Assembly: GCA_036898135.1 (NCBI GenBank)
Contig: CM072522.1
Location: forward strand, 34,670,451-34,734,450
Origin: Oncomelania hupensis
Lineage: Eukaryota > Mollusca > Gastropoda > Littorinimorpha > Pomatiopsidae
Length of the DNA stretch: 64,000 bases
Direction: 5' to 3'
Part shown: positions 1,955 to 59,585 of the stretch, piece after piece
Layout: each line of letters starts with the position of its first letter
How positions within the stretch are numbered: the first letter of the stretch is position 1
The notes under the pieces: model-generated
What the model saw: the letters and a program-made list of their open reading frames with translations, nothing else
Told to the model about the DNA's origin: nothing
The model's database searches: none
Position numbers and translations under genes: made by a program

Positions 1955-4486
1955 ATTTTTTCTACACATGCTGCACAATCTGGGGGCTCATTGTTTGCTG
2001 TCAGACCCATTAGTCCACAGTCATCAGCTGTCAAGTTCTCTTGTGCCTCAAACACTTCCCAAAGCGACGTCAGTGTGTGTGATCAAGACAGAAGAACAAA
2101 AAGAGAACAGCAACAGAAGACGGCACAATTACACAAAGACGCAGGTGACTTATGTCAGAAGACATTCACGGAAGCTTCAGGTTTGACGAAACACGAGTTG
2201 GATCATACGGGAGAAAAAAGCGATGCGTGCAATAAATCTTTCACATTTGCTAGATATTTGACGGCACATAAGCATACACATACTGTAGAGAAAAACTATG
2301 TGTGCGAGGTTTGTGACAAAGCTTACACTTGGGCCAGCGCTTTGAATCGGCACAAGTTGGTACACACAGGCGAGAACTCTCACACATGTGACGTTTGTGA
2401 TAAATCTTTCTCTTCCTCTTACTATTTGAAGGAACACAAGTTGTTACATGCAGGCGAGAAAAATCATGTGTGCGATGTGTGCAGTAAATCTTTCGCTATG
2501 GCTCACAGCTTGAAGCTGCATAAACTTAAACACTTGTTAGAAAAAAATAACCTTTGTGAGGTTTGTAATAAAGCTTTTCAGCTGTCTTACCAATTGAAGA
2601 AACATAAACTTACACACACAGGAGAGAAAAATCATGTGTGTGAGGTTTGCGCTAAAGCTTTTGCTATGGCTGACTCCTTGAAGGTGCATATGCTTACTCA
2701 TACAGGAGAGAAAAACCATGTGTGTGATGTTTGTGACAAAGCTTACACTTGGGCCAGCGCTTTGAATCGGCACAAGTTGGTACACACAGGCAAGAACTCT
2801 CACATATGTGATGTTTGTAATAAATCTTTTTTTTCCTCTTACTATTTGAAGGCACACAAGTTTATACATGCAGGCGAGAAAAATCATGTGTGCGATGTGT
2901 GCAGTAAATCTTTCACTATGGCTAAAAGGTTGAAGCTGCATAAACTTACACACACAGGAGAGAAAAATCATGTGTGTGAAGTTTGCGCTAAAGCTTTTGC
3001 TATGGCTCACTCCTTGAAGGTGCATATGCTTACTCATACAGGAGAGAAAAATCATGTGTGTGGTGTTTGTAATAAAGCTTTTGCTAGGGCTGACTGTTTG
3101 AGAGGGCATATGCTTACTCATACAGAAGAGAAAAATCATGTGTGTGATGTTTGCACTAAAGCTTTTGCTAGGTCTCGCTCCTTGAAGGGGCATATGCTTA
3201 CTCATACAGGAGAGAAATGTCATGTTTGTGATGTTTGCAATAAAGCTTTCAGTATGGTGGATCATTTGAAGCAGCACAAGTTGATTCACACTGGAGAGAA
3301 AAGTCATGTGTGTGATGTTTGCGCTAAAGCTTTCAGTAAGGTGGCCTATTTGAACAAGCATAAGCTTACTCATACAGGAGAGAAAAACCATAGGTGTGGT
3401 GTTTGTAATAAAGCTTACACTCAGGCCAGGACTTTGCATCGGCACAAGTTGGTACACACAGGCGAGAACTCTCACACACGTGATGTTTGTGATGTTTGTG
3501 ATAAATCTTTCTCTTCCTCTTACTATTTGAAGGTACACAAGTTGTTACATACAGGCGAGAACTCTCACACATGTGATGTTTGTGATAAATCTTTCTCTTC
3601 CTCTTACTATTTGAAGGCACACAAGTTGTTACATGCAGGGGAGAAAAATCATGTGTGTGATGTGTGCAGTAAATCTTTCACTACAGCTAACATTTTGAAG
3701 CTGCATAAACTTACACACACAGGAGAGAAAAATCATGTGTGTGATGTTTGCGCTAAAGCTTTTGCTAGGGCACACTCCTTGAAGGGGCATATGCTTACTC
3801 ATACAGGAGAGAAAAGTCATGTGTGTGATGTTTGCACTAAAGCTTTTGCTTGGGCTGACTCCTTGAAGGTGCATAAGCGTACTCATACAGGAGAGAAAAG
3901 TCATGTGTGTGATGTTTGCACTAAAGCTTTCAAAAGTGTGGACTATTTGAAGTTGCATAAGCTTACTCATACAGGAGAGGAAAACCATGTGTGTGATGTG
4001 TGCAGTAAATCTTTCACTTTCACAAACAGTTTGAAGCTGCATAAACTTAAACACACAGGAGAGAAAAACCACGTTTGTGAGGTTTGTAATAAAGCTTTTA
4101 CGCTGGCTAACAAACTGAAGGCACATAAACTTACACACACAGGAGAGAAAAATCATGTGTGTGAGGTTTGCGCTAAACCTTTTGCTATGGCTCGCTACTT
4201 GAAGGCGCATAAACTTACACACACAAGAGGGAAAAATCATGTGTGTGAGGTTTGCGCTAAAGCTTTTGCTACGGCTCACTACTTGAAGGTGCATAAGTGT
4301 ACTCATACAAAAGAGAAAAACCACGGGTGCGATGTTTATAATAAAGCTTTCACTCTGGCTAGCTACTTGAAGGTACACCAGAGTAGTCATGCGAAAGAGA
4401 AGGGAAATCAAGCCTGTGATGTTTGTAATGAAACTTTCACTTTGGCTGAAGATTTGAAGCAACACATGTTGATACATGGAAGATAG
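1955..4486 (+). CDS. C2H2 zinc-finger protein, terminal exon (gene 1)
   Basis: This is one long open exon encoding a poly-C2H2 protein, most likely a nuclear DNA-binding regulator. I start it at the acceptor TTTGTGCAG (AG at 1953-1954), because the frame reads through it and the gene 2 paralogue uses the same site; the 5' exons lie left of the window. The first 60 or so residues are Ser/Gln-rich with no finger. Then come 28 finger units of C-x2-C-x12-H-x3-H spacing: units 1-2 lack the first Cys, 25 are complete, and unit 27 has Tyr for the second Cys (CDVY). Linkers are mostly TGEKNH or TGEKSH rather than the usual TGEKP. Helix residues are similar between fingers, as expected from recent internal duplication. 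It ends with TAG at 4484-4486. A KRAB or BTB domain is not visible here. Confidence 0.9.
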   Translation: MFSTHAAQSGGSLFAVRPISPQSSAVKFSCASNTSQSDVSVCDQDRRTKREQQQKTAQLHKDAGDLCQKTFTEASGLTKHELDHTGEKSDACNKSFTFARYLTAHKHTHTVEKNYVCEVCDKAYTWASALNRHKLVHTGENSHTCDVCDKSFSSSYYLKEHKLLHAGEKNHVCDVCSKSFAMAHSLKLHKLKHLLEKNNLCEVCNKAFQLSYQLKKHKLTHTGEKNHVCEVCAKAFAMADSLKVHMLTHTGEKNHVCDVCDKAYTWASALNRHKLVHTGKNSHICDVCNKSFFSSYYLKAHKFIHAGEKNHVCDVCSKSFTMAKRLKLHKLTHTGEKNHVCEVCAKAFAMAHSLKVHMLTHTGEKNHVCGVCNKAFARADCLRGHMLTHTEEKNHVCDVCTKAFARSRSLKGHMLTHTGEKCHVCDVCNKAFSMVDHLKQHKLIHTGEKSHVCDVCAKAFSKVAYLNKHKLTHTGEKNHRCGVCNKAYTQARTLHRHKLVHTGENSHTRDVCDVCDKSFSSSYYLKVHKLLHTGENSHTCDVCDKSFSSSYYLKAHKLLHAGEKNHVCDVCSKSFTTANILKLHKLTHTGEKNHVCDVCAKAFARAHSLKGHMLTHTGEKSHVCDVCTKAFAWADSLKVHKRTHTGEKSHVCDVCTKAFKSVDYLKLHKLTHTGEENHVCDVCSKSFTFTNSLKLHKLKHTGEKNHVCEVCNKAFTLANKLKAHKLTHTGEKNHVCEVCAKPFAMARYLKAHKLTHTRGKNHVCEVCAKAFATAHYLKVHKCTHTKEKNHGCDVYNKAFTLASYLKVHQSSHAKEKGNQACDVCNETFTLAEDLKQHMLIHGR

Positions 4487-13891: not shown

Positions 13892-14043
13892 ATGGCGGAC
13901 AGTGGGGAGAAAGCGTACGATTGTTGTTGGAAGAAACCCAAAATACGACCTGGTGGTACCCATTGCAGTGCAGTCAACTGTACAAATGGTCGCTACAAGT
14001 GCCCAGGGTTATCTTTCTTTCAATTTCCAAAGGAAGAAACAAG
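13892..14043 (+). CDS. THAP-domain gene, exon 1
   Basis: The exon starts at ATG 13892, in a good context (A at -3, G at +4), and ends at donor AG|GTAAGC (GT 14044-14045) in phase 2. It encodes about 50 residues with the first half of a THAP domain: the pair CSAVNC (C-x4-C) followed by FFQFPKEETR. THAP domains are C2CH zinc modules that bind DNA and occur in transcription factors and P-element-type transposases. An 11-codon uORF (ATG 13831) precedes it. The sequence just upstream is locally CG-containing and could hold the promoter, though no TATA box is seen. Confidence 0.85.
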
Positions 14044-14997
14044 GTAAGCTTTTGAATTTTATTGAAAGTGAATGATGTGTTCAGTTCATGTTTCACGCTC
14101 GTAAATTCAACTTGTTCAAGGGAGACGAGGTAGCATTATGTGTATGTATGCATGATTTAGTATTTTTAAAAATGCTATTTTGAATAAACTGTACGTAATC
14201 TGTGTAATATTTTGTATGTGATTCATTTAATTTAATTAAATATCGACATCAGTCAGAAATTAGAAGATTTAAATTTTATGTACTTTCAGGATTCAGTCAA
14301 CTTGGCAACTTGAGTTACCCATTATAATTATACTGACAGGCAAGCAAAATCCCCTTGCCTTGCTGTTTTAATTTTTCAGAAGAAAACAAAAATCCAAACA
14401 ACAAAACAAACATACTCAATCAATGCAAAATGAATAAGCCATGTAGACAACATACAGGCTACCCCAAGGTTTAAATTGTTAAGAGTCCCAGAGACTCCGT
14501 GCAAAACAACAACAACAACAACAACAACACACAAAAAAGAGGGTCCCAGGCGCCTGCGTAAAAAGTGCACAATTTATTAACTAGTGTATGAATGCATTTG
14601 TGCATGGACACAGACACTTTTTTTTAGGTTGATTTGTTTTGGATTTAACTACTGTGCCTTTCAAGAATGCAAACAATGCTTTGTACTTGATTTATAGTCT
14701 TGAAAAATACGCTTCTCTTTGAAGCAGAGCGTACAATGTTGTGCTTCAAATCTGGAATTTTGTGCATCAGATACGCACTACAGTGCATCTTGTGGAGGTC
14801 TGTTGAGGTGACAGACTTTCTATGCATGTGTTTTCTTCCTCCCCTCTGCTTCCCTTCAATTACAAAACTCGTGACATCAAAAGACCTTTATATTGTGTGT
14901 GTTGGTTCCTGGAGGTTTTTTAAATTTTTTAATCTGTATCAGTTTAAGTGTACAATGCATGCTAACCTTAATTTTGTACTGTGTTGTTGCTTTGTAG
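14044..14997 (+). other. THAP gene intron 1
   Basis: The intron has a GTAAGC donor and a TTTGTAG acceptor. It is AT-rich with a (CAA)n run at 14507-14530. No other feature is recognised. Confidence 0.7.
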
Positions 14998-15263
14998 GTG
15001 CAAAGTATGGGTCCAGAGATGCAGACGGCAAGATCTACTGGCGAAAGACACAACACAACTCAGCAAGAACTACTTTCTTTGCGGCAAGCATTTTGAGGAC
15101 AGCCAGTTCATGAATGCAGCACAGAGAAACAAGCTTGTTTGGAATGCAGTGCCATCACTGTTTGATGTGCCCAATCCTCCACCCCCTGTCACGCTGAAAA
15201 GGAAACTCCCAGCCAGGACCCCAGCAATGTCTACAAAGAAGCTCAAAACTTCCAGCACTGATG
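14998..15263 (+). CDS. THAP-domain gene, exon 2
   Basis: The acceptor AG at 14996-14997 and the split Arg codon (AG|G) join exon 1 in frame. The donor is G|GTAAGT (GT 15264-15265), phase 1. The exon completes the THAP domain: a Trp-containing KVWVQRC segment, then the second zinc pair FLCGKHF (C-x2-H) and the closing NAVPSLF, equivalent to the conserved AVPTIF box. A Pro-rich stretch (NPPPPV) and a basic stretch (KRKLP, TKKLK), a possible nuclear localisation signal, follow. All THAP hallmark residues appear present, so the fold is probably intact. Confidence 0.88.
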
Positions 15264-20466: not shown

Positions 20467-20580
20467 TGTAGAGAGTTCCTGTATATGGGCATTACTTCCC
20501 TTGTTTGTGTTTAGGTTGGGCATAAAAACATGAAATTCTTGATGAATGTTGATCGTTGTTGATTTTATTGCTTCGTGAAG

Positions 20581-20680
20581 GAGGACGAAGACAATCCAAT
20601 GCCAGAGGTGAAGTTGGAGATTGACATTGCTGAAGAACCAGTGGGAGACATTAAGAGCTTGCAAGAGTGGCACGCACAAG
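20581..20680 (+). CDS. Gene 2 acidic exon with a SUMO-type motif
   Basis: The frame reads EDEDNPMPEVKLEIDIAEEP and ends at donor CAAG|GTGAGT (GT 20681-20682), phase 1. The paralogous exon of gene 3 (51266-51368) begins with ATG. Here that codon is AAG (20578-20580), so this copy has lost the start but shows an AG directly before GAG GAC. It may begin as an internal exon spliced from the THAP exons (phase 0 fits), or translation could start at the in-frame ATG 20599. The segment PEVKLE fits the psi-K-x-E sumoylation consensus. Its end joins in frame to 24389. Confidence 0.7.
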
Positions 20681-22004: not shown

Positions 22005-23885
22005 GCACCTTGGATAACATCCTTATTAGACACTATCCTCCATGGTATGAGGGAAATGATAGGAAAGACCTCTCTTCACCTTGAATATAACATCCTTATT
22101 AGACACTATCCTCCATGGTATGAGGGAAATGATAGGAAAAACCTCTCTTCACCTGCATAACATCCTTATTAGACACTATCCTCCATGGTATGAGGGAAAT
22201 GATAGGAAAGACCTCTCTTCACCTTGGATAACATCCTTATTAGACACTATCCTCCGTGGTATGAGGGAAATGATAGGAAAGACCTCTCTTCACCTTGGAT
22301 AACATCCTTTTTAGACACTATTCTCCATGGTATGAGGGAAATGATAGGAAAGACCTATCTTCACCTTGGATAACATCCTTATTAGACCCTATCCTCCGTG
22401 GTATAAGGGAAATGATAGGAAAGACCTCTCTTTACCTTGGATAACATCCTTAATAGACACTATCCTCCGTGGTTTGAGGGAAATGATAGGAAAGACCTCT
22501 CTTCACCTTGGATAACATCCTTTTTAGACACTATCCTCCATGGTATGAGGGAAATGATAGGAAAGACCTCTCTTCACCTTGGATAACATCCTTATTAGAC
22601 ACTATCCTCCGTGGTATGAGGTAAATGATAGGAAAGACCTCTCTTCACCTTGGATAACATCCTTATTAGACACTATCCTCCGTGGTATGAGGGAAATGAT
22701 AGGAAAGACCTCTCTTCACTTTGGATAACATCCTTATTAGACACTATCCTCCGTGGTTGGAGGGAAATGATAGGAAAGACCCCTCTTCACCTTGGATAAC
22801 ATCCTTATTAGACACTATCCGTGGTATGAGGGAAATGATAGGAAAGACCCCTCTTCACCTTGGATAACATCCTTATTAGACACTATCCATGGTATGAGGG
22901 AAATGATAGGAAAGACCCCTCTTCACCTTGGATATAACATCCTTATTAGACACTATCCTCCATGGTATGAGGGAAATGATAGGAAAGACCTCTCTTCACC
23001 TTGGATAACATGCTTATTAGACACTATCCTCCATGGTATGAGGGAAATGATAGGAAAGACCTCTCTTCACCTTGGATAACATCCTTATTAGACACTATCC
23101 TCCGTGGTATGAGGTAAATGATATGAAAGACCTCTCTTCACCTTGGATAACATCCTTATTAGACACTATCCTCCGTGGTATGAGGGAAATGATAGGAAAC
23201 ACCCCTCTTCACCTTGGATAACATCCTTATTAGACACTATCCTCAGTGGTATGAGGGAAATGATAGGTAAGACCCCTCTTCACCTTAGATAACATCCTTA
23301 TTAGACACTATCCTTCATGGTATGAGGGAAATGATAGGAAAGTCCTCTCTTCACCTTGGATAACATCCTTATTAGACACTATCCTCCGTGGTATGAGGGA
23401 AATGATAGGAAAGACCCCTCTTCACCTTGGATATAACATCCTTATTAGACACTATCCTCCATGGTATGAGGGAAATGATAGGAAAGACCCCTCTTCACCT
23501 TGGATAAAATCCTTTTTAGACACTATCCTCCATGGTATGAGGGAAATGATAGGAAAGACCTCTCTTCACCTTGGATAACATCCTTATTAGACACTATCCT
23601 CCGTGGTATGAGGGAAATGATAGGAAAGACCTCTCTTCACCTTGGATAACATCCTTATTAGACACTATCCTCCGTGGTATGAGGGAAATGATAGGAAAGA
23701 CCCCTCTTCACCTTGGATATAACATCCTTATTAGACACTATCCTCCATGGTATGAGGGAAATGATAGGAAAGACCTCTCTTCACCTTGGATAACATCCTT
23801 ATTAGACACTATCCTCCGTGGTATGAGGGAAATGATAGGAAAGACCTCTCTTCACCTTGGATAACATCCTTATTAGACACTATCC
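22005..23885. repeat. 71-bp minisatellite, about 26 units, in gene 2 intron
   Basis: Units contain TTGGATAACATCCTTATTAG, then CACTATCCTCC(A/G)TGGTATGAG and CTCTCTTCACC. Small indels of a few bases occur in several units. The paralogous array (55715-57062) has about 19 units. ORFs across it are artefacts of low stop density. Confidence 0.95.
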
Positions 23886-24388: not shown

Positions 24389-25642
24389 AAGTTGCTGGAG
24401 GAGAAAGTCAGCATGTCTCTCACACCAGCGGAGAACAGATTGTCAGAGACACAGCAGGCCTGAGTGGCAGCATGTTTGAGATAAAGGAAGAATGGGAAAG
24501 TAAGATAGAGTCTGACAGTGACGCAATGGAGCCACATGACCCAGTGTTATCTAAAGTGAAGATAGAGCCTGACAGTGACGCAATGGAGCCACATGACCCA
24601 GTGTTATTTAAAGTGAAGACAGAGCCTGGCGGTGACCAGATGGAGCCACATGACCCAGTGTTATCTAAAGTTAAGATAGAGCCTGACAGTGACACAATGG
24701 AGCCACATGACCCAGTGTTATCTAAAGTTAAGATAGAGCCTGACAGTGACGCAATGGAGCCACATGACCCAGTGTTATCTAAAGTTAAGATAGAGCCTGA
24801 CAGTGACACAATGGAGCCACATGACCCAGTGTTATTTAAATTGAAGACAGAGCCTGACGGTGACACAATGGAGCCACATGACCCAGTGTTATTTAAAGTG
24901 AAGACAGAGCCTGGCGGTGACCAGATGGAGCCACATGACCCAGTGTTATCTAAAGTGAAGATAGAGCCTGACAGTGACGCAATGGAGCCACATGACCCAG
25001 TGTTATTTAAAGTGAAGACAGAGCCTGGCGGTGACCAGATGGAGCCATATGACCCAGTGTTATTTGAAGTGAAGACAGAGTCTGGCGGTGACCAGATGGA
25101 GCCACATGACCCAGTGTTATTTGAAGTGAAGACAGAGCCTGTTGGTGACCAGATGGAGCCACATGACCCAGCATTGTTTAAAGTGAAGACAGAGCCTGAC
25201 AGTGACACAATGGAGCAATATGGCCCAGTGTCATTTAAAGTGATGACAGAGCCTGGCGGTGACCAGATGGAGCCACATGACCCAGTGTTATTTGAAGTGA
25301 AGACAGAGTCTGGCGGTGACCAGATGGAGCCACATGACCCAGTGTTATTTGAAGTGAAGACAGAGCCTGGTGGTGACCAGATGGAGCCACATGACCCAGC
25401 ATTGTTTAAAGTGAAGACAGAGCCTGGTGGTGACCTGATGGAGCCACATGACCCAGCGTTGTTTAAAGTGAAGACAGAGCCTGATGGTGACCAGATGGAG
25501 CCACATGACCCAGTGTTATTTAAAGTGAAGACAGAGCCTGACGGTGACCTGATGGAACCACATGAGCTAATGTTGTCTGAAGTGAAGACAGAGCCAGACA
25601 GTGATGCAGACGAAGAGCTGGCAGTATTCGTTGGCATGACAG
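24389..25642 (+). CDS. Gene 2 SUMO-motif repeat exon (19 x 19 residues)
   Basis: The acceptor is TGCTCTAG after a long T-tract (AG 24387-24388) and the donor is ACAG|GTAACG (GT 25643-25644). The exon opens with 2 nt that complete a Glu codon with the previous exon and ends in phase 1. After a 28-residue lead it has EIKEE and then nineteen tandem 19-residue repeats, consensus MEPHDPVLFKVKTEPGGDQ. Each keeps P-x4-(V/I/L)-K-x-E-P, the 'synergy control' form of the SUMO acceptor motif, except one with K to M and two with S in place of the last P. Acidic residues follow most sites. The exon is 57-bp modular and gene 3 has only five repeats. It probably forms a disordered, heavily sumoylatable platform in a zinc-finger regulator; sumoylation itself is inferred. 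Confidence 0.85.
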
Positions 25643-28306: not shown

Positions 28307-28386
28307 AAAGGAGTGTGCCAATGGAAATGGAGACAGAGAGATGGAAGTCAGGGAGGAACAATGGGACCCCTCAAACGGGGACTGAG
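28307..28386 (+). CDS. Gene 2 80-bp linking exon (predicted)
   Basis: The acceptor TGTGCATTTCAG (AG 28305-28306) and donor GAG|GTAACT (GT 28387-28388) bound 80 bp. The first two bases complete a Glu codon after the phase 1 SUMO-repeat exon, 26 codons stay open, and the exon ends in phase 0. That is exactly what the zinc-finger exon acceptor at 32124 needs. Without such an exon the frames of the two large exons do not join. The peptide is acidic then polar (VPMEMETERWKSG). No homologue was found in unit B within the window. Confidence 0.6.
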
Positions 28387-30468: not shown

Positions 30469-31499
30469 CCAAGCACAACACCAGCAATGAGCTAGTTTAA
30501 CAAAGACAAAGAGCCAGCCCGCGTAAAAAAAGGGGAAAGGAAAGGCCGGCATCATTGCTAAGAGCAGGTGGCTGGCAGATCAGATTTCATGCTGAAAGCG
30601 ACTCAGAGCTCGTAAACAGAGACCACTGTTTCAGCTGTGTTACATGTTTAGCACAATAAGATAGGCTGCAAGCGGTGGATTTAAAATTTATGGAAGACCA
30701 ACACTGCATGGTGGCAGTGACAGGGGATTCGTATCACTGAGAGTACCCATAGCATGAAACTGAAGCTACGTCCTAGCTCCTCTTGTCCCTGGGTTTCACC
30801 TGCATGAGTGATGAACAAGTGACAGTGATTTACACCCCCACCCCTCTCCCAAACCCCCCCCACCCCACCACACCCTCACATCCTGTCTCACATCTCCTAC
30901 CACCCCACACCCCCCACCCCCATCATCTCTTTCACATCCTGTCTCACATCCCCTACCTTCCCCCACAAATTGTTGATATTCTTTATTTAGATTTTGAAAA
31001 AGTCTTCGATTCCAGAAGATGAGACAGGTCAAAGCCAAAGATTGAAGCACATCAGATTAAAAAAGATTTCAGTATCTGTATTTTGCTAAATCCTTCTTCA
31101 GGAGTTAAAAGCCAACTGTGCTGGTATTCAACCATGAGATAACTTATAGAGGATTATGAGGTTTGTCTTTCTTTTTAATTGAAAAAAGGCAAGAGTGTGC
31201 AGCATCAGAGCAGGCAAGGCCTTTCAGGAAATGTTCTTATATAGTTCTTATATAGCTATGTAGCCCACTTATATAGTTCTTATATAGCTATGTAGCCCAC
31301 TTATATAGTTCTTATATAGCTATGTAGCCCACTTACATAGTTCTTATATAGCTATGTAGCCCACTTACAAGCTCAGGGAACTTCTCAAGGCACTGGCCAC
31401 TAATATCCCGCAATCGCACAATAGTTTGCTGAAGTCAGGATTCAAACCAATGTCGCCCAAGACGCATGTACACTAGGCATGCATCCTGAGCACTGACCT
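30469..31499. other. Spacer: C-rich tract, LINE scrap, 32-bp tandem repeat
   Basis: A pyrimidine-rich CCCCACC tract spans 30826-30965. A tiny plus-strand LINE RT motif A scrap (ILYLDFEKVFDS) lies at 30973-31015. At 31218-31375 a ~32-bp unit (TTATATAGTTCTTATATAGC with GTAGCCCAC) repeats about four times. None is a gene. Confidence 0.65.
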
Positions 31500-31995
31500 A
31501 TCCCTGCCTCTGTCTGTATTGAAGTACCTAAAGTTCTATCATCTCATAACTAACATATAGCTATCCCTGCCTCTGTCTGTGTTGAAGTACCTAAAGTTCT
31601 ATCATCTCACAACTAACATATAGCTATCCCCGCCTCTGTCTGTGTTGAAGTACCTAAAGTTCTATCATCTCACAACTAATATATAGCTATCCCTGCCTCT
31701 GTCTGTGTTGAAGTACCTAAAGTTCTATCATCTCACAACTAACGCATAGCTATCCCTGCCTCTGTCTGTGTTGAAGTACCTAAAGTTCTATCATCTCACA
31801 ACTAACATATAGCTATCCCTGCTTCTGTCTGTGTTTAAGTACCTAAAGTTCTATCATCTCACAACTAACACTGAGCTATCCCTGCCTCTGTCTGTGTTGA
31901 AGTACCTAAAGTTCTATCATCTCACAACTAACATATAGCTATCCCTGCCTCTGTCTGTGTTGAATTACCTAAAGTTCTATCATCTCACAACTAAC
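31500..31995. repeat. 63-bp minisatellite, about 8 units, before zinc-finger exon (gene 2)
   Basis: Same unit as 814-1815, here mostly the long form. It ends about 130 bp before the zinc-finger exon acceptor, the same position as in gene 1. No TIR element interrupts it. Confidence 0.95.
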
Positions 31996-32123
31996 ATATA
32001 GTTTTCCCACAGTTTGTCTCCGACAACCATTTAAAAAATATTTTAATTTTGAATACCTGTAATGCAGTAATTTATTTGGTGAGAATTCTTGTCTTTTTAT
32101 GTGATTGAGTGGTGTTTGTGCAG

Positions 32124-34129
32124 ATTTCTTCTACACACGCTGCACAATCTGGGGGCTCATTGTTTGCTGTCAGACCCATTAGCCCACAGTCATCAGCTGT
32201 CAAGTTCTCTTGTGCCTCAAACACTTCCCAAAGCGACGTCAGCGTGTGTGATCAAGACAGAAGAACAAAGAAAGAACAGCAACAGAAGACGGCACAATTA
32301 CACAAAGACGCAGGTGACTTATGTCAGAAGACATTCACGGAAGCTTCAGGTTTGACGAAACGCGAGTTGGAGCATACGGGAGAAAAAAGCGATGCGTGCA
32401 GTAAATCTTTCACATTTGCTAGATATTTGACGGCACATAAGCATACACATACTGTAGATAAAAACTATGTGTGCGATGTTTGTGACAAAGCTTACAATAG
32501 GGCCAGCAGTTTGAATCGGCACAAGTTGGTACACAAAGGCAAGAACTCTCACATATGTGATGTTTGTAATAAATCTTTCTGTTCCTCTTACTATTTGAAG
32601 GCACACAAGTTGATACATGCAGGCGAGAAAAATCATGTGTGCGATGTGTGCAGTAAATTTTTTATTCAGGCTAACGATTTGAAGTTGCATAAGCTTACTC
32701 ATACAGGAGAGAAAAATCATGTGTGTGAGGTTTGCGCTAAAGCTTTTGCTAGGGCTCACGCCTTGAAGGTGCATATGCTTACTCATACAGGAGAGAAAAG
32801 TCATGTGTGTGATGTTTGCACTAAAGCTTTCAGAAGTGTGGACTATTTGAAGTTGCATAAGCTTATTCATACAGGAGAGAAAAACCATAGGTGTGATGTG
32901 TGCAGTAAATCTTTCACTATGGCTAAGAATTTGAAGCTGCATAAACTTAGACACACAGGAGAGAAAAATCATGTGTGTGAGGTCTGCGCTAAAGCTTTTG
33001 CTAGGGCTCACTCCTTGAAGCTGCATATGCTTACTCATACAGAAGAAAAAAGTCATGTGTGTGAGGTTTGCGCTAAAGCTTTTGCTAGGGCTGACTCCTT
33101 GAAGGTGCATATGCTTACTCATACAGAAGAGACAAGTCATGTGTGTGATGTGTGCAGTAAATCTTTCATTCAGGCTAACGATTTGAAGTTGCATAAGCTT
33201 ACTCATACAGGAGAGAAAAACCATGTGTGTGATGTGTGCAGTAAATCTTTCACTATGGCTACACGTTTGAAGCTGCATAAACTTAGACACACAGGAGAGA
33301 AAAATCATGTGTGTGAGGTTTGCGCTAAAGCTTTTGCTAGGGCTGACTACTTGAAGGGGCATATGCTTACTCATACAGGAGAGAAAAGTCATGTAAAGCT
33401 TTCAGAAGTGTGGACTATTTGAAGTTGCATAAGCTTACTCATACAGGAGAGAAAAACCATGTGTGTGATGTGTGCAGTAAATCTTTCACTATAGCTAACA
33501 GTTTGAAGCTGCATAAACTTAAACACACGGGAGAGAAAAACCACGTTTGTGAGGTTTGTAATAAAGCTTTTACGCAGGCTAACCAACTGAAGGCACATAA
33601 ATTTACACACACAGGAGTGAAAAAACATGTGTGTGAGGTCTGCGCTAAAGCTTTTGGTAGGGCTGACTCCTTGAAGCTGCATAAACTTAAACACAGGGGA
33701 GAGAAAAACCATGTTTGTAAGGTTTGTAGTAAAGCTTTTACGCTGGCTCACCAATTGAGGGCACATAAACTTACACACACAGGGGAGAAAAATCATGTGT
33801 GTGAGGTTTGCACTAAAGCTTTTGCTTGGGCTGACTCCTTGAAGCTGCATAAACTTACACACACAGGGGAGAAAAATCATGTGTGTGAGGTTTGCGCTAA
33901 AGCTTTTGCTAGGGCTCACTACTTGAAGGTGCATAAGCGTACTCATACAACAGAGAAAAACCATATGTGTGATGTTTATAATAAAGCTTTCACTGGGGCT
34001 AGCTACTTGAAGGTACACTAGCGTAGTCATGCGGAAGAGAAGGGAAATCAAGCCTGTGATGTTTGTAATGAAACTTTCACTTTGGCTGAAGATTTGAAGC
34101 AACACATGTTGATGATACATGGAAGATAG
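32124..34129 (+). pseudogene. Gene 2 C2H2 zinc-finger exon, broken by frameshift
   Basis: It is paralogous to 1955-4486 with the same acceptor (AG 32122-32123), the same Ser/Gln-rich lead and the same two Cys-deficient first units. Eleven complete fingers follow. A 16-bp deletion at about 33395 (CATGT|AAAGC, compare 32806-32832) then shifts the frame, and the natural frame ends at a stop at 33420-33422. Downstream, in the old frame, six more complete fingers, one CDVY unit, a stop CAC TAG (34018-34020) where gene 1 has CAG, and a last finger remain. The product may be a shorter 11-finger protein rather than nothing, so 'pseudogene' is cautious. An in-frame GAT is added near the end. Confidence 0.85.
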
Positions 34130-51265: not shown

Positions 51266-51368
51266 ATGGAGGACGAAGACAATCCAATGCCAGAGGTGAA
51301 GTTGGAGATTGACATTGCTGAAGAACCAGTGGGAGACAGGAAGAGATGGCAAGCGCGGCACGCACAAG
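51266..51368 (+). CDS. Gene 3 first coding exon
   Basis: ATG 51266 (G at +4) opens 34 codons, MEDEDNPMPEVKLEIDIAEE then basic KRWQARH, ending CAAG|GTGAGT (GT 51369-51370) in phase 1. It joins in frame to 59130. The start is supported by an in-frame stop upstream and no acceptor AG in front. PEVKLE fits the SUMO acceptor consensus. The gene 2 copy carries AAG in place of this ATG. Confidence 0.7.
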
Positions 51369-55714: not shown

Positions 55715-57062
55715 CACCTTGGATAACATCCTTATTAGACACTCCTCCATGGTATGAGGGAAATGATAGGAAAGACCTCTCTTCACCTTGGATAAAATCC
55801 TTATTAGACACTATCCTCCATGGTATGAGGGAAATGGTAGGAAAGACCTCTCTTCACCTTGGATATAACATCCTTATTAGACACTATCCTCCATGGTATG
55901 AGGAAAATGATAGGAAAGACCTCTCTTCACCTTGGATAACATCCTTATTAGACACTATCCATGGTATAAGGGAAATGATAGGAAAGACCCCTCTTCACCT
56001 TGGATAACATCCTTATTAGACACTATCCTCCGTGGTATGAGGGAAATGATAGGAAAGACCTCTCTTCACCTTGGATAACATCCTTATTAGACACTATCCT
56101 CCATGGTATGAGGGAAATGATAGGAAAGACCCCTCTTCACCTTGGATAACATCCTTATTAGACACTATCCTCCATGGTATGAGGGAAATGATAGGAAAGA
56201 CCTCTCTCTTCACCTTGGATAACATCCTTATTAGACACTATCCTCCGTGGTATGAGGGAAATGATAGGGAAGACCTTTCTTCACCTTGGATAACATCCTT
56301 TTTAGACACTATCCTCTGTGGTATGAGGGAAATGATAGGAAAGACCCCTCTTCACCTTGGATAACATCCTTATTAGACACTATCCTCCGTGGTATGAGGG
56401 AAATGATAGGAAAGACCCCTCTTCACCTTGGATAACATCCTCATTAGACACTATCCTCCGTGGTATGAGGTAAATGATAGGAAAGACCTTTCTTCACCTT
56501 TGATAACATCCTTATTAGACACTATCCTCCGTGGTATGAGGGAAATGATAGGAAAGACATTTCTTCACCTTGGATAACATCCTTATTAGACAGTATCCTC
56601 CGTGGTTTTAAGGGGAAATGATAGGAAAGACCTCTTTTCACCTTGGATAACATCCTTATTAGACACTATCCTCCGTGGTATGAGGGAAATGATAGGAAAG
56701 AACTCTCTTCACCTTGGATAACATCCTTATTACACACTATCCTCCATGGTATGAGGGAAATGATAGGAAAGACCTCTCTTCACCTTGGAGATAACATCCT
56801 TATTAGACACTATCCTCCATGGTATGAGGGAAATGATAGGAAAGACCTCTCTTCACCTATAACATCCTTATTAGACACTATCCTCCATGGTATGAGGGAA
56901 ATGATAGGAAAGACTTCTCTTCACCTTGGATAACATCCTTATTAGACACTATCCTCCGTGGTATGAGGGAAATGATAGGAAAGACCTTTCTTCACCTTGG
57001 ATAACATCCTTATTAGACACTATCCTCCATGGTATGAGGGAAATGATAGGAAAGACCTCTCT
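55715..57062. repeat. 71-bp minisatellite, about 19 units, gene 3 intron
   Basis: Same unit as 22005-23885 with fewer copies. Single-unit variants (CATTCTTC, short units lacking CTCC) differ between the arrays, showing independent change. Confidence 0.95.
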
Positions 57063-57084
57063 TGCCTTCTCTGCTGCCAGTGGT

Positions 57085-59129: not shown

Positions 59130-59585
59130 AAATTGCTGGAGGAGAAAGTCAGCATGTCTCTCACACCATCAGAGAACAGTTTGTCAGTGACACCACAGGC
59201 CTGAGTGGCAGCATGTTTGAGATAAAGGAAGAATCGGAAAGTAAGATAGAGTCTGACAGTGACGCAATGGAGCCACATGACCCAGTGTTATCTAAAGTGA
59301 AGACAGAGACTGACAGTGACGCAATGGAGCAATATGGCCCAGTGTCATTTAAAGTGAAGACAGAGCCTGACAGTGACACAATGGAGCAATATGGCCCAGT
59401 GTCATTTAAAGTGAAGACAGAGCCTGGCAGGGACTGGATGGAGCCACATGACCCAGCGTTGTTTAAAGTGAAGACAGAGCCTGACGGTGACCTGATCGAA
59501 CCACATGACCCAGTGTTGTTTAAATTGGAGACAGAGCCAGACAGTGATGCAGATAAAGAGCTGCCAGTATTGGTTGTCATGACAG
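59130..59585 (+). CDS. Gene 3 SUMO-motif repeat exon (5 repeats)
   Basis: The acceptor TTGCTCTAG (AG 59128-59129) and donor ACAG|GTAATG (GT 59586-59587) match gene 2, as do the phases (2 nt in, 1 nt out). After the shared lead (VSHTIREQFVSD, FEIKEE) there are five 19-residue repeats: four keep VKTE and the last reads LETE, losing the lysine. Two carry MEQYGPVSFKVKTEP. The exon is otherwise open, so the gene may be functional with a shorter repeat platform. The next exon is not found before the window ends. Confidence 0.82.

Follow-up and report, generated by a model that had tools for sequence, protein, structure and literature searches.

A tandem array of SUMO-acceptor-like motifs in an exon of a clustered C2H2 zinc-finger gene family of Oncomelania hupensis

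Introduction

One exon of a C2H2 zinc-finger gene in the gastropod Oncomelania hupensis encodes a short motif of the form psi-K-x-E-P again and again at a spacing of 19 residues. This raises the question of whether the motif is a SUMO acceptor site that selection keeps or a passenger of a multiplying repeat, and of what such an array would do beside zinc fingers. The window, by which we mean the whole stretch of 64,000 nucleotides analyzed here (G000:C12:34670451-34734450, plus strand), comes from an assembly of 1.45 Gb in 428 contigs. It carries parts of three tandem paralogous genes, all on the plus strand, and the array of 19 units belongs to the middle gene.

The array exon

The array lies in an internal exon whose frame is open throughout:

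24389-25642, plus strand: array exon, internal, 1254 bases, 418 codons, phase 1 at both ends, holding EIKEE and 19 tandem units
24526-25608, plus strand: 19 tandem units of 57 bp each, consensus MEPHDPVLxKVKTEPDSDx (Tandem Repeats Finder [TRF] and profile scan)

The acceptor TTGCTCTAG precedes position 24389 and the donor ACAG/GTAACG follows position 25642. Because both ends are in phase 1, the exon could be skipped in frame. TRF reports 24497-25604 with a period of 57, 19.5 copies and 90% matches, and the array of 19 units of 57 bp in one internal exon is real. The region encodes an acidic chain with a V-K-T-E-P acceptor-like motif every 19 residues. The preliminary description of this DNA had claimed a 19-residue tandem array with a kept lysine, and 18 of the 19 units indeed have the lysine and psi-K-x-E. 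Its statement that each repeat contains the full P-x4-psi-K-x-E-P motif is slightly overstated because of deviating units: K is replaced by M in one and the last P by S in two, and the first P is missing from the final unit. The full motif is found in 15/19 units and fails in the remaining four, and psi-K-x-E-P is found in 16/19. Two further sites reported ahead of the array are also present, EIKEE in the array exon (24478-24492) and PEVKLE in an upstream exon (20602-20619).

No Rfam family matched within the 64-kb window at curated thresholds. The tandem genes also share the positions of noncoding minisatellites, one set ahead of the array exon and another ahead of the finger exon:

22006-23885 and 55715-57063: noncoding minisatellites, 71-bp units (TRF)
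814-1812 and 31498-32008: noncoding minisatellites, 59-63-bp units (TRF)

Gene structure and tandem paralogues

The exon structure of the middle gene was read from splice sites, phases and conservation, and from these we infer that its array exon would be joined to the first three exons below; the last three belong to its neighbors:

about 20581-20680, plus strand: probable first coding exon of the middle gene (EDEDNPMPEVKLEIDIAEEPVGDIKSLQEWHAQ), donor CAAG/GTGAGT, phase 1
28307-28386, plus strand: short middle exon, phase 1 to 0 (ERSVPMEMETERWKSGRNNGTPQTGTE), from sequence and matches to tandem units
32124-33422, plus strand: finger exon of the middle gene, phase 0 start, 11 strict-pattern fingers followed by a frameshift that leads to a stop (Pfam C2H2)
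1955-4486, plus strand: finger exon of the upstream paralogue, 25 strict-pattern fingers (Pfam), its array exon lying just before the window
51266-51368, plus strand: first coding exon of the downstream paralogue, start ATG present, end set by analogy
59130-59585, plus strand: array exon of the downstream paralogue, 5 units (TRF, open frame, profile scan)

A direct splice between the array and finger exons was considered and rejected, as the phases clash (1 versus 0); the short middle exon resolves this clash. Matches to the middle exon reach 93-100% in the four tandem units compared, with one further match at 44%. Past the last unit, the first donor-like site, located with a crude pattern, is in phase 1 in 80/103 exons of the family, in phase 2 in 12 and in phase 0 in 7, and 4 exons have none. 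The five-unit array of the downstream paralogue keeps the lysine in 4/5 units and psi-K-x-E-P in 3/5.

An ATG stands directly before the EDED block in 38 of 40 fetched first exons, one codon earlier in one, and is absent from one. In-frame stops lie ahead of it in many copies, and translation therefore probably starts at this ATG in most of them. In the window gene the usual start reads AAG (20578-20580), with ATG in its three tandem neighbors, and the next in-frame ATG is at 20599, six codons into the EDED block. Beyond the frameshift in the finger exon, more fingers follow in another frame up to 34018. Because of these two lesions, the lost start codon and the frameshift in the fingers, the window's own gene copy may be impaired, and the argument for selection therefore rests on the family.

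A paralogue family on contig C12

A genome search with the array exon returned at least 125 matching stretches (106 of 718 candidates scored). Merging gave a family of at least 104 exons, 102 of them on C12, one on C5 and one on C6, found by likeness to a motif-rich query that may miss motif-less paralogues. Removed before the counts were L045 (a duplicate of the L010 exon), the finger-only loci L001-L008, and the repeat loci of one exon. The exons hold from 1 to 24 units, and 123 of the 125 stretches are free of stops, in agreement with the expectation that the repeat number changes in whole 57-bp units with the frame kept. On a tree built from the 5′ flanks, parsimony counts 10 gains or losses of the state "seven or more units", at least eight of which are forced by supported branches; the tree holds 94 of 103 exons (nine short-flank exons, some with seven or more units, being omitted), has few columns and contains many unresolved forks. 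By parsimony, then, the array appears to have been amplified repeatedly within the family.

Linkage to C2H2 fingers, proposed from the window, extends to the family. The start of a family finger exon lies within 12 kb downstream on the same strand for at least 40 of the 102 C12 arrays, a lower bound because it is based on the best 150 of 4311 candidates. Among the matches listed from that search, 10 of the C12 arrays have such an exon on the wrong side and none has one on the opposite strand. A first coding exon lies within 8 kb upstream for at least 40 of the 102 C12 arrays; among the matches listed, the corresponding numbers are 4 for the wrong side and 4 and 0 for the opposite strand. The two first-coding-exon searches yielded 433 and 455 candidates, of which the best 150 of each were scored. 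C12 is 62.8 Mb long and carries 102/104 array exons and, from the first of these searches, 141 of the 150 first coding exons listed.

Five loci in another part of C12 (L114, L117, L119, L123 and L124), which form a subclade, have a different repeat of 42 residues, also with the motif and with several psi-K-x-E-like sites per copy. At L101, L102, L125, L126 and L020, intron-less open frames lead from an array through fingers into a further array, or from fingers into an array, and are perhaps retrocopies of spliced or read-through transcripts. The fused finger-array frames of L020, L101 and L102 were considered as evidence of the exon order, found to be ambiguous, and not used. With the array exon or an alignment of 10 paralogous exons as the query, a search of a protein collection found no hit at E 0.001 in the 7990 candidates scored for each, a negative of little weight given a repetitive query and a collection with perhaps few animals.

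Constraint on the codons of the unit

Units were collected with a profile in which the V-K-T-E-P columns (11-15) were hidden, at a threshold above all scores in one shuffle per exon. This motif-blind collection comprises 566 units from 104 exons, with K in 552, V in 527, E in 516 and P in 519. psi-K-x-E/D is present in 496/560 family units and the full P-x4-psi-K-x-E-P in 389/560. The 426 unique units were connected by a minimum spanning tree with 375 edges of at most six differences, and changes per codon were compared with the silent rate under an assumed transition weight of 2.5, the units being taken as independent lineages in these tree-based counts. The same picture was obtained with the duplicate exon still included.

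The SUMO lysine, K12, shows 6 amino-acid changes against 47 expected from silent changes (ratio 0.13), while K10, a control lysine two residues upstream, shows 49 against 47 (K12 versus K10, p 9e-10). The other motif columns give observed over expected counts of 17/47 for E14 (0.36), 16/42 for V11 (0.39) and 17/43 for P15 (0.40). Across the whole family no other codon among the 19 is as constrained as these four (K, E, psi and the P after it), which together differ from the other 15 columns with a Fisher p of 2e-17 (rounded counts). The comparison of K and E with neutral positions, which had been suggested as a check, is thus borne out family-wide. Constraint extends to T13 (18/43, 0.42), which occupies the position left free by the SUMO consensus, and the non-motif columns range from 0.52 (D18) to 1.48 (M19).

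Exons with fewer than seven units show 5/42 for K12, 0.32 for E, 0.40 for P and 0.53 for V. In exons with seven or more units K12 stands at 1/17 and both V and P at 0.32, and the other 15 columns, taken together, drift near-neutrally (1.02). E reaches only 0.58 in these long arrays, level with D18 and above H4 (0.53). The motif pattern is weak in the window's own cluster (75 edges, small counts), with 2/6 for K12 (0.33), 4/6 for E14 (0.67), 4/5 for P15 (0.75), 1/5 for V11, 1/7 for D18 and 1/6 for E2; D18, E2 and V lie below K there, and K12 against K10 is 2 to 11 (p 0.013).

A tree-free count over the 98 exons with at least three units gives amino-acid variation at K12 in 11 exons, the fewest of all columns, and at K10 in 46; K10 varies with K12 fixed in 40 exons and the reverse holds in 5. 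Silent variation occurs at K12 in 21/98 exons and at K10 in 9. The constraint on K12 is therefore on the protein, not on the DNA, and a splicing signal is an unlikely cause, given that K12 does vary silently. In the last unit of the array, K is kept in 103/104 exons and E likewise in 103/104.

The repeat had also been described as the extended synergy-control form, a kind of motif expected to restrain activation only where a promoter has several sites, and the codon counts bear this out only in part. The downstream P is constrained (0.40), whereas the upstream P6, at 0.75 overall and 1.11 in long arrays, is not specially so, and selection thus seems to preserve less than the complete synergy-control form. 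For a SUMO-acceptor-like motif made up of psi, K, E and the P after it, maintenance by selection is well supported by these counts family-wide.

Other candidate SUMO-related sites

Elsewhere in the predicted protein, 44 first-coding-exon sequences (37 unique), all fitting [VM]K[LV]EI, give 1/6 for V, 0/7 for K, 5/5 for x and 0/7 for E. Much of the rest of this exon is equally conserved, for example I (0/7) and P (0/6) just after the site. The first-exon site is kept and not singled out, and the free position of the SUMO consensus is free there. In a pattern-free alignment, the M/I-K-E-E site early in the array exon is only mildly and not specially constrained (K 9/18, E 10/18); its lysine is present in 82/94 aligned rows. 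The array exon ends in a tail:

25606-25642, plus strand: tail ADEELAVFVGMT, an acidic stretch with a hydrophobic core (fixed-offset tail columns)

Taken at a fixed offset without a pattern in 66/103 exons (37 omitted), the tail gives 0.30 for E, 0.36 for V, 0.34 for F and 0.06 for F. An acidic-E-L-P-V-F-F-like tail is found by pattern in 61/103 exons, and 42/103 misfit. These columns hint weakly at a candidate SUMO-interacting motif. F is unusual in such a core because V, L and I are preferred there, as given in PMC12751080.

The best candidate for a SUMO gene in this assembly is a 92-residue frame matching PF11976 (G000:C5:34476321-34476527, E 2e-8). Stronger matches, on C1 and C8, repeat every 228 bases and resemble polyubiquitin.

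Alternative readings of the repeated motif

Other explanations for the kept lysine have to be weighed against a SUMO acceptor site. The lysine could be part of another short motif that resembles psi-K-x-E, for example a docking or methylation site. E is replaced by A in 29 units of 8 exons, including 13/24 units in L025, and in L025, L073, L063, L079 and L089 many units read V-K-T-A-P with the lysine retained. K is present in 47/50 units without E, compared with 505/516 units with E. A lysine kept for SUMO alone would be expected to relax where E is lost, so these 47 units count against the SUMO reading and speak for another motif, as do the constraint on T13 at a position that the SUMO consensus leaves free and the modest ratio for E in long arrays. 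Many of the E losses fall in one subclade and look recent, and the E ratio is 0.25 once the E-to-A subclade is left out; within this genome, the 19-residue period goes with a K that stays and an E that is lost in one subclade. Against another motif, psi and E are constrained together with K over the whole family, and the free position of the first-exon site is free. We therefore regard a different lysine motif as unlikely, and as the most serious of the alternatives.

A second possibility is that the array is a functionless coding minisatellite in which slippage and unequal exchange multiply units and the motif is a passenger. Other minisatellites do lie nearby in the window, and the near-neutral drift of the non-motif columns in long arrays also speaks for this reading. 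A passenger would not, however, hold K12 at 6/47 beside K10 at 49/47, homogenization works on whole units rather than on single codons, and nearly all matching stretches are stop-free. The per-codon and tree-free counts weigh strongly against a minisatellite, which we consider quite improbable. Least probable of all, and very much so, is an acidic transactivation domain in which recurring acidic and hydrophobic side chains recruit coactivators. In its favor, the unit has many D and E interspersed with hydrophobic residues, and D18 is fairly constrained; against it, most of the non-motif acidic and hydrophobic residues drift in long arrays (D5 1.03, V7 1.34, L8 0.88, D16 0.98).

Zinc fingers and associated domains

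The finger exons encode polydactyl C2H2 proteins, with TGEK-type linkers and matches to Pfam PF00096 and PF13465. The main finger frames of four tandem units hold 27, 25, 11 and 18 fingers, and two of the frames are broken. The finger pattern picks out 83 fingers (76 unique) in the 144 kb surrounding the window. Among these, the contact positions -1, 2, 3 and 6 change at 3.08 times the silent expectation, compared with 1.04 for positions -2, 1 and 5 and 0.83 for the other free positions; zero change at the finger C, F, L and H residues carries no weight because the search pattern demands them. Eight further finger loci of this genome (L001-L008), which may lie outside the array genes, give 3.92, 1.43 and 0.65 for the same three classes. 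Such rapid change of contact residues would be expected if the targets keep changing, as mobile elements do.

Neither the array exon nor the first coding exon has a Pfam match at E 0.001, and hence neither contains a KRAB or ZAD match at that threshold. A THAP domain lies 9 kb upstream of the window array:

13892-15263, plus strand: THAP domain in two exons (13892-14043, 14998-15263), Pfam PF05485, E 1.9e-15

The donor of its second exon is in phase 1, which fits the array exon, and a THAP match lies within 16 kb upstream of at least 10 of the 102 C12 arrays; the matches listed place 2 on the wrong side and none on the other strand. At other loci the THAP donors are non-uniform, and at least one linked THAP copy is of another type; on C6, a THAP match of a different type lies 13 kb before the array. 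The THAP exons were considered as the N-terminus of the family and not adopted, given the non-uniform donors elsewhere and a first coding exon with its own ATG in most copies; in the window they may belong either to the array gene or to a neighbor.

Proposed function of the array

A SUMO-acceptor reading offers what we judge to be the probable explanation of these observations: the array exon would serve as the effector part of polydactyl C2H2 proteins that form a lineage-specific family, and would carry from 1 to 24 SUMO acceptor sites, with SUMO loading leading to the recruitment of silencing factors. The exon would encode an acidic and probably flexible chain, here with 19 V-K-T-E-P acceptor sites, and UBC9 would load SUMO onto several of the array lysines. 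The fingers would place the SUMO-bearing protein, to which SUMO-binding silencing factors could then be recruited, and unequal exchange among the 57-bp units would alter the site count without shifting the frame. The flexibility of the chain, the exchange between units, conjugation of SUMO, recruitment of silencing factors, repression and the targets of the fingers are all steps that we infer from the sequences. A repressor role for the array is plausible, and the combined pattern suggests that the family could be a set of rapidly evolving silencers whose SUMO handle can be adjusted.

Selection seems to keep the SUMO site as a repeated module, and in long arrays most else drifts. This makes it possible to ask experimentally if multiple SUMO moieties attached to the same DNA-bound protein act jointly, and if SUMO by itself can be the effector of a fast-evolving zinc-finger family. 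The paralogue series of 1 to 24 units is a natural, ready-made dose experiment for such work.

Comparison with known systems

To our knowledge, known transcription factors with a synergy-control/SUMO motif carry one to a few sites. They differ in this from the family described here, in which there are up to 24 tandem units and only the downstream proline is specially constrained. Nurr1 is one such factor, and the progesterone, androgen and glucocorticoid receptors are also named in PMC3554661, where synergy control is defined by a proline or glycine on both sides of psi-K-x-E. By titles and abstract openings, with few subscription journals among them, the literature on SUMO-site arrays gave no tandem SUMO-site array beside zinc fingers.

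Two systems described elsewhere share part of the pattern. The C2H2 expansions of cephalopods, as reported in PMC12513265, likewise involve lineage-specific growth of genes strongly co-localized on few chromosomes; the terms SUMO, THAP and repressor domain are absent from the main text of that paper. Bonus, the TIF1 protein of Drosophila, resembles the proposed function in being a chromatin silencer whose repression needs SUMOylation and involves SetDB1 (PMC10672805), but it has a single SUMO site in a TIF1 protein and no array beside zinc fingers.

The array family has in common with KRAB zinc-finger proteins its large and clustered membership, many C2H2 fingers, fast-changing DNA contacts and a conserved non-finger part. 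KRAB zinc-finger proteins act with TRIM28. Unlike them, the array genes have as their candidate effector an array of short motifs, not a folded box. It is possible, although we put this forward tentatively, that we are looking at a KRAB-like counterpart in an animal lineage: some hundreds of genes, nearly all on one chromosome, that would combine fast-changing contacts with an amplifiable comb of SUMO sites in place of a folded repressor domain, and in which the number of units, changed by in-frame unequal exchange, could serve as an evolvable dial for the strength of silencing.
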